Assembly: GCF_007115095.1 (NCBI RefSeq)
Contig: NZ_SULH01000003.1
Span: 124,001-188,000 of the forward strand
DNA length: 64,000 nt
Source of the DNA: Levilactobacillus enshiensis
GTDB taxonomy: Bacteria; Bacillota; Bacilli; Lactobacillales; Lactobacillaceae
Reading direction: 5' to 3'
Under the pieces are notes generated by a model. That model did not search any database. It was given only the letters and a program-made list of their open reading frames with translations, and was not told where the DNA came from. Positions 4,510 to 64,000 of this stretch are shown here, piece by piece; positions within the stretch are counted from its first letter, which is position 1, and every line of letters begins with the position of its first letter. Made by a program: the position numbers and the translations under genes.

Positions 4510-4805
4510 TATTTTTTGTGAATATTAGTTCAATTTAGGAATATTTAGGCATTGGACCAGTGACCATCACTGGCAGTTGGTCATCGGCCCGAATTGCCAG
4601 CACCATGGCCCGAAAACTCACGCTGACGGCCCGATTCGACGTAACGCCACATTGAACCCGTCTCTCTCAGGCGACCGCCACGATTAATTTCCTTGAAAAA
4701 CACGCGCTGAAAATAAAAACGGTTACCTTCAAAATAATCCTTACGCCATGAAAAAATATGTGGTACGCTAACAACTCGTGGGAAATTCAAACGAGGAGCA
4801 ACACA
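4510..4805. other. Intergenic region between divergent VIT and DUF2798 genes
   Basis: Mostly without recognisable features. A minus-strand frame at 4581-4790 has neither a ribosome binding site nor familiar sequence. GAGGAG at 4793-4798 is the ribosome site of the next gene. Confidence 0.4.
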
Positions 4806-11859: not shown

Positions 11860-12804
11860 ATGAATGCCGCTTATCGCCAACTGACCATCTTTCAGTTGCT
11901 TATCAGTCAGCATATCGTCAACAAGGCCGCCCTCGCCGACCAATTTCACGTCAGCCTGCGGGTCATTCAACGTGACCTCAGTCAGATTCGCCAGTTCATT
12001 GCCGAACAAAATTTATTTTATCAACTGGTCTACCGCCGCCAATTTGACGGCTACCAGCTCATCACTACCCAGGCCAGTGTGTCCAAACAAGCTGTGCTGG
12101 TGCTCATCAAGATTGCGCTCGCCAGCCGGTCCCTGACGACGGCTGAAATGACCCAAACCATCGACGGCCTGCTCCAACTGCTCCCCCTTGCCGATCAGCA
12201 GGAAATCCGGCCCATCATTAAAAACGAACGTTTCTACTATCAGCCCGTCCATCATGGTCAAGACTTACTCACCAACATTTGGGAGCTCAGCCAATTCATC
12301 ACGCAGCAGCAGGCCGTGACCATCACGTATCAAAAGCAACATAAAGAGATCGTCACCCGGACAATTCTGCCGGAAGCCATCATCTTTTCCGAATACTACT
12401 TTTACGTCATCGCCTACAACGCCAAGTACGACAGTAATCTCTTCTACCGTGTCGACCGGATTCGTCACCTGCAAACGACCAGCCAAACCATCCCCCGTAC
12501 CCGGGCACAACGCGTGGAGGACGGCGAGTTGCGGCGGCTCCTGCACTACATGCAGCCAGGGAAAAAGCTGACAGTCCAATTTAAATTTTGGGGCATCGTC
12601 GAAGCCGCCCTCGACCGATTTCCCACGGCCAAGGTAGTCAAGAAATATCCCGCCGAAAAGGCTGTCTTGATCGAGGCCACGGCCTTTGCGGGCGGCGCCA
12701 AGATGTGGCTACTGAGTCAAGGCGCCAACGTCCAAGTCGTGGCCCCGCAATCATTTGTCACTGAGTTTCAAACGGAAATTCAACGGATGGCGGACCGCTA
12801 TTAA
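11860..12804 (+). CDS. WYL-domain transcriptional regulator
   Basis: 314 aa. N-terminal winged helix-turn-helix of DeoR/HTH_11 type (residues about 5-60: IVNKAALADQFHVSLRVIQR), followed by a WYL domain (about 145-230: AVTITYQKQHKE ... YYFYVIAYNAKYDSNLFYRV DRIR) and a C-terminal WCX-like extension. WYL regulators bind nucleotides or nucleic-acid ligands and commonly repress defence or DNA-repair genes. ATG 11860 follows AAGGAG. Divergent from the Mor-like gene 11514-11771, so it may control that neighbourhood. Ended by a strong hairpin at 12813-12861. Confidence 0.85.
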   Translation: MNAAYRQLTIFQLLISQHIVNKAALADQFHVSLRVIQRDLSQIRQFIAEQNLFYQLVYRRQFDGYQLITTQASVSKQAVLVLIKIALASRSLTTAEMTQTIDGLLQLLPLADQQEIRPIIKNERFYYQPVHHGQDLLTNIWELSQFITQQQAVTITYQKQHKEIVTRTILPEAIIFSEYYFYVIAYNAKYDSNLFYRVDRIRHLQTTSQTIPRTRAQRVEDGELRRLLHYMQPGKKLTVQFKFWGIVEAALDRFPTAKVVKKYPAEKAVLIEATAFAGGAKMWLLSQGANVQVVAPQSFVTEFQTEIQRMADRY

Positions 12805-63259: not shown

Positions 63260-63275
63260 TGTTCCACGTGAAACA
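63260..63275. other. parS site 5
   Basis: TGTTCCACGTGAAACA, identical to the B. subtilis parS core and one base from the perfect palindrome. Confidence 0.88.
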
Positions 63276-63286
63276 ACCAATTTTGC

Positions 63287-63424
63287 TTGACTTGCCCTAG
63301 TCTATCGTGCGATACTACTCGTGGTGCCAAACCAAGGTGGGGGTACGCGATCGGTGCGCAAGCATTCCGAAGGTCGCCGCACCTCACCACTTCAGTCTCG
63401 CGTTCCGCGCGGGGCTGTTTTTTT
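63287..63424 (+). ncRNA. Candidate small structured RNA, about 100 nt
   Basis: Promoter -35 TTGACT (63287-63292), 18-nt spacer, -10 GATACT (63311-63316); expected start near 63323. The transcript can fold: GTGGTG with CACCAC, AGGTG with CACCT, and an inner GGTGC-GCAA-GCATTCC hairpin with a GNRA loop. It ends in an intrinsic terminator CAGTCTCGCG / CGCGGGGCTG plus seven T (63393-63424). No reading frame with a ribosome site. Not recognised as SRP RNA, 6S or a known riboswitch. Confidence 0.55.
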
Positions 63425-63497: not shown

Positions 63498-63513
63498 TGG
63501 TTCACGTGAAACA
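63498..63513. other. parS-like site 6
   Basis: TGGTTCACGTGAAACA, two bases from consensus (16-mer); just upstream of yaaA. Confidence 0.65.
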
Positions 63514-63540: not shown

Positions 63541-64000
63541 TTGAAAATCATCATCGCCCCAGCCAAAAAGATGGTCGTCGACACCGATACCTTCGGCTAC
63601 GACGCCACCCCACAGTACTTACCCCAGACTCAGCAGATTCTGGCTGAACTTCGACGACTCACCTACCCCCAGGCCAAGGCGCTTTGGCATTGCAGCGACA
63701 AGCTTGCCCAGCCCAACTATGACTGGCTCCAGCAACTCGACCTCACTCGTCAGTTGACCCCCGCTTTGTTGGCCTTCTCGGGCATTCAGTATCAGTACAT
63801 GGCGCCAGACCTGTTCACCGCACCGGCCTTAGACTACGTGCGGGCCAACCTACGGATTCTCTCCGGCTTCTATGGCATTTTACGCCCATTTGACGGCATC
63901 GTTCCCTACCGCTTAGAAATGCAGGCCAAGCTGCAGGTTGCCGGTGCTCCCAATCTGTACGCCTTCTGGCAAGATCGCTTGTACCAGGCACTCACGCCAG
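63541..64000 (+). CDS. yaaA: YaaA family (UPF0246), peroxide stress response protein, 3' end outside window
   Basis: Starts at TTG 63541, after AAAGGAGG. 153 codons are visible of about 250 expected. N-terminal MKIIIAPAKKMVVDTDTFGY and mid-protein LLAFSGIQYQYMAP, LRILSGFYGILRPFDGIVPY RLEM are characteristic. YaaA limits free intracellular iron during peroxide stress in E. coli and has a DNA-binding fold. The gene continues past the right edge. Confidence 0.88.
   Translation, partial: MKIIIAPAKKMVVDTDTFGYDATPQYLPQTQQILAELRRLTYPQAKALWHCSDKLAQPNYDWLQQLDLTRQLTPALLAFSGIQYQYMAPDLFTAPALDYVRANLRILSGFYGILRPFDGIVPYRLEMQAKLQVAGAPNLYAFWQDRLYQALTP

Follow-up and report, generated by a model that had tools for sequence, protein, structure and literature searches.

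The window (the whole stretch of DNA analysed, 64,000 nucleotides) carries, at positions 63287-63424 of the plus strand, an RNA gene in which a folded body lies between an extended -10 promoter and an intrinsic terminator. Two parS-like 16-mers flank the gene, and downstream begins a frame that we take to be yaaA-like, a name adopted from the initial annotation and from general knowledge; the placement between parS and yaaA described there is thus correct. The features are arranged as follows.

63260-63275, plus strand: parS-like 16-mer from a sequence scan; upstream neighbour, outside the RNA
63287-63316, plus strand: promoter, with -35 TTGACT (63287-63292), TG (63308-63309) and -10 GATACT (63311-63316)
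63323-63424, plus strand: predicted transcript, 102 nt, its start deduced from promoter geometry and its end from the T run
63323-63333, plus strand: 5′ element GGUGCCAAACC, able to form hairpin P0 (GGU/ACC, loop GCCAA); reverse complement of 23S rRNA GGUUUGGCACC
63336-63388, plus strand: conserved hairpin with compensatory changes; same fold from MAFFT alignments not fitted to the fold
63336-63342/63382-63388, plus strand: P1, stem of the conserved hairpin
63347-63352/63372-63377, plus strand: P2, stem of the conserved hairpin
63353-63354/63365-63366, plus strand: tandem G.U in the conserved hairpin
63355-63357/63362-63364, plus strand: P3, stem with loop 63358-63361
63367-63371, plus strand: 5-nt bulge YNGAA in the conserved hairpin
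63393-63424, plus strand: separate intrinsic terminator, hairpin 63393-63417 with 11 pairs, then 7 T at 63418-63424
63498-63513, plus strand: parS-like 16-mer from a sequence scan; downstream neighbour, outside the RNA
63541-64000, plus strand: yaaA-like gene, an open frame truncated by the window end

Six parS-like 16-mers with up to 3 mismatches occur in the window (13854, 23302, 59931, 60952, 63260 and 63498) versus 0.36 expected, and two of them, 63260 and 63498, are those flanking the RNA gene. No tRNA genes were found in the window.

The consensus promoter proposed in the initial annotation is borne out: TTGACT-18-GATACT plus TG, with an 18-nt spacer, matches the consensus at 9 of 12 positions. 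Generic scans of the window are weak taken alone, yielding 3 promoters versus 0.7 expected and 3 terminators versus 1.6 expected. Of 97 distinct copies in which no tRNA arm was recognised (a set that still takes in a few trailer copies with a variant arm), 82 keep an extended -10 at a fixed distance from GGTGCC, versus 20 of 1940 random positions. Because the gap between the -10 and GGTGCC is 6 bases, the predicted start falls at about G63323 and the predicted transcript, both of its ends being deduced, measures about 102 nt, close to the 100 nt of the original description. The intrinsic terminator recognised there is also present, and its stem sequence varies among relatives. By prediction from sequence, the gene therefore possesses a promoter and a terminator of its own, as is characteristic of structured noncoding RNA genes.

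Fold and conserved motifs

The foldable body claimed in the initial annotation is borne out: the 108-nt segment 63317-63424 folds at -47.2 kcal/mol (z = -3.3), a value reached by 0 of 200 shuffles, and the body without the terminator gives a weaker signal (z = -2.1, 5 of 200 shuffles as good). Conservation among relatives follows the same fold. In an alignment of 81 copies from Lactobacillaceae, 59 of them distinct, pairing holds in 98.1% of cells, and two-sided changes affect 14 of 16 tested pairs (115 cells), which 0 of 500 shuffles reach; in 43 copies from the order search, compensatory changes occur in 17 of 24 pairs (208 cells), again with 0 of 500 shuffles as high. Alignments A2 and A3 were fitted to the model, which biases them towards the fold. 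In the first alignment (16 sequences, 11 distinct), two of five measures were matched by 32 and 442 of 500 shuffles, respectively. Two model-free MAFFT alignments of 25 and 28 sequences, analysed with RNAalifold, return an identical consensus fold: P0 (GGU-GCCAA-ACC), P1, P2, the tandem G.U, P3 and the 5-nt bulge YNGAA. The gene thus shows the compensatory stem changes typical of structured noncoding RNA genes. The pairs of P0 are nearly invariant, and P0 has no covariation support. The GNRA tetraloop of the initial annotation is present as GCAA at 63358-63361; it is not conserved and appears incidental. Nor is the region strictly devoid of frames, as had been stated, since short ORFs cross it; variation nevertheless follows RNA pairing.

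Of 101 distinct aligned cores, 100 share the 5′ element GGUGCCAAACC unchanged and the other one reads GGUGCCAAGCC, a ratio that overstates the invariance of the element because model searches favour motif-keeping copies. Two partial copies keep the hairpin and lack GGUGCCAAACC. One (L238, about 1514-1573, genome G429, 37.3 bits) is a second copy 4.4 kb from an intact one; it retains the hairpin and the T run, has lost GGTGCCAAACC and stands without a tRNA. The other is a weak hairpin-only copy (L288, 1992-2039, 20.9 bits) on the E. faecium plasmid p5753cA, located between bacteriocin and transporter genes. Judged from sequence and its variation, window 63287-63424 is a genuine conserved structured RNA gene.

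Distribution and genomic settings

A search with the yaaA-like frame gave 267 loci; of the best 80, 18 contain a sequence that aligns well with the RNA stretch. These are labelled Levilactobacillus (13), Lactobacillus sp. (2) and Lactiplantibacillus (3), and both the distance from the RNA to yaaA and the terminator vary among them. A covariance model of the 69-nt core (R1) recovers the same 18 loci plus one match at E 0.82. With R1 the RNA, single-copy in its own genome, is detected once each in 33 of the 35 genomes of the genus, the remaining two assemblies being 72% and 99% complete, and once each in 122 of 397 family genomes, representing 9 of 40 genera. In the other 275 family genomes R1 has no match: the RNA is either dispensable in many family lineages or missed by the search there. 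A second model (R2) finds it in 92 of 395 order genomes and 27 of 80 genera, with two copies in 6 of the 92. A third model (R3), built from the order-search copies, matches 6 of 398 class genomes, five inside the order and one doubtful. Comparison with named loci places the RNA in Lactiplantibacillus, Secundilactobacillus, Lapidilactobacillus and Lacticaseibacillus; further named copies belong to Latilactobacillus curvatus and to records labelled Enterococcus faecalis. A match outside Lactobacillales (TGGGTGCCAAACCC; L237, 1501-1567, genome G822, 34.4 bits) keeps P0 and has most of P1 and P2 broken; it is either a distant relative or a chance hit. In Listeria monocytogenes NZ_CP030101, tRNA-Lys(CUU) is present and the RNA is absent at that place. 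A search for plasmid relatives of the window copy gave no match, and one for phage relatives gave only matches at E of at least 1, in Rhodobacter and Bacteroides phages.

The initial annotation proposed conservation upstream of yaaA as a check. The RNA is conserved among relatives, but it is not tied to that gene: 13 of 30 tested genomes have no YaaA match and 11 of those 13 carry the RNA, with a query of 153 residues that distant YaaA proteins may escape. Coupling to yaaA was accordingly rejected.

A recurring neighbour is tRNA-Lys(CUU). From the order search, 40 loci containing 43 copies were retrieved: 35 of the copies immediately follow an intact tRNA-Lys(CUU) gene, 5 follow what is left of its 3′ end (some 9 nt in two cases) and 3, all from Lactobacillaceae, stand alone. 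Outside this family, 40 of 40 fetched copies follow tRNA-Lys(CUU) or a remnant. The tRNA also adjoins the match at four loci of the R3 class search (L233-L236) and is missing at L238. In this arrangement P1 continues into the T run, which makes the RNA the trailer and terminator of tRNA-Lys(CUU) in several other families of the Lactobacillales.

The Lactobacillaceae form has its own promoter and often a second terminator, and its predicted start lies at or beside the first G of GGUGCC. A set of 17 Lactobacillaceae genomes, of which 14 carry the RNA, contains 22 tRNA-Lys(CUU) sites; the RNA follows none of them, indicating that it is maintained in this family independently of the tRNA in cis. 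By eye, a different recurring terminator hairpin follows tRNA-Lys(CUU) at ten Lactobacillaceae loci (L244, L246, L247, L249-L251 and L253-L256); there it is often of the type AACCAGT...CGTGGTTGCTGGTTTTTT, and it may represent a second conserved trailer.

The two settings are connected by a shared neighbourhood in part of the loci. At four loci (L188, L195, L217 and L224), tRNA-Lys and the RNA are preceded by purA and, wherever the locus extends far enough, also by dnaB and rplI; purA adjoins the lone RNA of Lapidilactobacillus and Latilactobacillus in opposite orientation, and dnaB precedes the lone RNA in two Secundilactobacillus loci. The identities of purA, dnaB and L9 were confirmed by Pfam. 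This rplI-dnaB-purA neighbourhood links the trailer and lone forms, and across the gene neighbours of 47 loci no cluster is common to more than four genera. Probably, we infer, the trailer form came first and the RNA later became free-standing. From its sequence, the window gene looks like an autonomous relative of the tRNA-trailer form and is not itself classed as a trailer.

The trailer arrangement, with P1 entering the T run and T5 behind the core in 43 of 43 recognised tRNA-linked copies, could be read as a cis element and nothing else, namely an intricate terminator of tRNA-Lys(CUU) or a signal for its processing. This is very improbable: in Lactobacillaceae the RNA is separated from the tRNA and has a promoter and in many cases a further terminator, which makes a purely cis role unlikely, and neither the invariant GGUGCCAAACC nor YNGAA is needed for a terminator. 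The trailer form nonetheless also serves as a terminator, and this may account for some of the conservation seen in that form.

The RNA is also carried by mobile elements. At three of the fetched loci an insert lies between two copies of the RNA, and the insert at L226 contains a tyrosine integrase split over two frames. The copies at L226 lie at 4619-4692 and 11979-12051, and the tRNA-side copy has diverged from the other. An Enterococcus phage record holds, in its attachment site, the 3′ half of tRNA-Lys followed immediately by a diverged, fold-preserving RNA copy that begins 176 nt behind the end of the integrase frame. Among viral contigs, one pattern search gave a single match, by eye not the RNA, and another pattern gave none; a looser pattern identified four contigs with the RNA. 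Three of these show a phage-like upstream arrangement and then a host-type RNA, and the fourth has a complete tRNA-Lys, another version of the RNA and an integrase frame. Between the phage and one viral contig the 130 bases before the RNA are identical and the RNAs differ at many stem positions; both form the same two hairpins, the base pairs of P3 themselves having changed.

These sites raise the alternative of a DNA feature of mobile elements, part of an integrase attachment site at tRNA-Lys, and the attP-like order of integrase, 3′ half of tRNA-Lys and RNA agrees with it, as does the island with a split integrase between two RNA copies. It is nevertheless a far-fetched alternative, for host-type and phage RNAs differ in sequence and fold alike behind 130 identical bases that include the tRNA part, and lone copies carry a conserved promoter. 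We infer that a phage, on integrating, regenerates the RNA as well as the tRNA end. That phages would bring a replacement for both argues that the RNA is worth keeping.

Mode of action and candidate partners

The locus is best explained as a gene for a trans-acting, structured small RNA that was probably once a tRNA trailer, to which we assign a probability of about 0.6 on the strength of sequence comparison. The 5′ element and the YNGAA bulge persist within freely changing stems, which points to an unchanging partner. RNase Z cleaves behind tRNAs. In the tRNA-linked form, cleavage behind the tRNA would release the same RNA unit that the free-standing gene produces. This RNA would act in trans, its hairpin core probably held by a protein or ribosomal partner and its 5′ element contacting or pairing with another RNA. 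The leading specific versions or rivals of the trans-acting reading are pairing with mRNAs or small RNAs, which can be entertained tentatively, and pairing with rRNA, which is rather unlikely.

In the first of these, the RNA would regulate mRNAs or other small RNAs by base pairing, or act as a sponge for them, with the 5′ element or the GCCAA loop as seed. Invariant seeds within changing stems are usual in small RNAs, which favours such pairing; against it stands the second conserved motif within the hairpin, which is unusual in a purely antisense RNA. A precedent for a trans-acting tRNA trailer is E. coli 3′ETS-leuZ (excerpt of PMC6191717). Loci with GGYTTGGCACC, the complement of the element, were examined at 33 places from 13 genomes, 37 of 67 matching places being left out: 6 are 23S, 9 are the RNA gene and 18 are others. 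None of these 18 recurs between genomes as a target (crude frame test, full-length complement), which speaks against full-length mRNA targets. Three (L308, L315 and L317) have a possible start codon within 45 nt, opening frames of 34-61 aa. In two genomes (L290 and L291, at about 1500) GGTGCCAAACC sits between a ribosome-binding site and a start; the opposite strand reads GGAGGTGCCAAACCTATG or GGAGGTGCCAAACCATG and then enters a frame beginning MKLHEL, presumably that of ribosomal protein L15. On balance a base-pairing regulator is possible, at roughly the odds of an open guess among several.

In the second, GGUGCCAAACC would pair with 23S GGUUUGGCACC, which we take to lie in helix 89 near the peptidyl transferase centre, and the protein-bound hairpin would serve 50S assembly, quality control or hibernation. 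A perfect 11-nt complement of the 5′ element is present in the 23S of its own genome and in 5 other classified 23S stretches, and the variant core GGUGCCAAGCC would still pair with 23S via G.U. Within its own genome the complement occurs at three places besides the RNA gene, namely 23S and two sites inside long open frames. By sequence alone, the RNA thus carries an antisense element to rRNA of at least about 10 nt, as do rRNA guides of the snoRNA kind. Several observations weigh the other way. The complementarity was found post hoc, and shuffling the RNA 400 times gives 2 to 17 equally high antisense scores, depending on the species (five tried); the 23S segment is itself invariant, leaving covariation uninformative on the pairing; no second pairing site was found; and the two partial copies do without the 5′ element. 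In genome G566, which has the RNA, the sole complement is the RNA gene itself, in an assembly that may lack 23S. Helix 89 is also buried in mature ribosomes. The complementarity to 23S helix 89 is suggestive only, and an rRNA-directed role would be a surprise. A sense similarity to 23S near H93, tempting by eye, was discarded as chance (198 of 400 shuffles, window). In a paper on bacterial rRNA (PMC4690841), GGTGCCAAACC occurs, presumably as a 23S oligonucleotide.

A fuller version of the rRNA reading, and a long shot, is an rRNA-directed small RNP in which a protein-held hairpin presents an 11-nt guide to helix 89 of 23S. The RNA would be made as a tRNA-Lys trailer or transcribed from its own promoter, and prophages would supply it when integrating into that tRNA. 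To our knowledge, no RNA acting like a guide or chaperone on the peptidyl transferase centre is known from bacteria; if true, this RNP would be the first. An rRNA-directed role is directly testable through the 23S complementarity, in harmless food strains. More generally, the data describe an RNA family spanning an order of food-used and human-found bacteria in which few small RNAs are understood, and they suggest a tRNA trailer turned free-standing gene.

Comparison with known RNAs

At the gathering score, a scan of the window against Rfam 15 assigns no family, and only matches with E>1 fall in the RNA stretch; the earlier judgement that it is not SRP, 6S or a riboswitch is upheld. The best Rfam matches on the RNA are suhB/mmgR (RF00519, 14.4 bits, E 2.1) and isrJ (RF01393, 14.2 bits, E 4.9), at chance level and far below their gathering scores of 41 and 37. 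Ten loci of relatives gave only tRNA and T-box at gathering, and six further loci gave nothing on the RNA up to E 0.5. All Rfam matches at gathering or relaxed thresholds, including those at one tRNA-Lys locus, were rejected as chance, tRNA or T-box. The initial annotation, which proposed a compact RNA gene that belongs to no known class and has a promoter and terminator of its own, is thus supported by the 122 of 397 family genomes, the compensatory changes and the lack of an Rfam 15 family.

Titles and abstract openings of the literature on Lactobacillus small RNAs, Enterococcus Grad-seq, tRNA trailers, Lactobacillales motifs and Lacto-int name no such RNA. A term search of PMC7724050 and PMC10117718, covering the articles apart from their supplements, found no tRNA-Lys, and the main texts of three structured-RNA surveys mention neither Lactobacillus nor Enterococcus. 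The Lacto-int motif, listed for Lactobacillales and their phages with ambiguous RNA status and without an Rfam number (Weinberg et al., 2010, PMC2864571, Table 1), might be the same motif as this RNA: compared by its Table 1 entry, its name would fit an attP-adjacent motif. In that case the motif was listed in 2010, and the tRNA linkage and the free-standing form are absent from the main-text parts of PMC2864571 consulted.

The closest known arrangement is that of 3′ETS-leuZ, the trailer of the E. coli glyW-cysT-leuZ tRNA transcript, which pairs with RyhB (excerpt of PMC6191717). Like the trailer form described here, it is a tRNA 3′ trailer with an intrinsic terminator, and it acts in trans (same excerpt). 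The location directly 3′ of a tRNA gene that marks RNAs of this kind is found in the relatives and not in the window. 3′ETS-leuZ follows a different tRNA, and the likeness is one of arrangement, with no sequence relation claimed. Unlike 3′ETS-leuZ, the RNA described here preserves its fold and an 11-nt element across an order and has its own promoter in one family.
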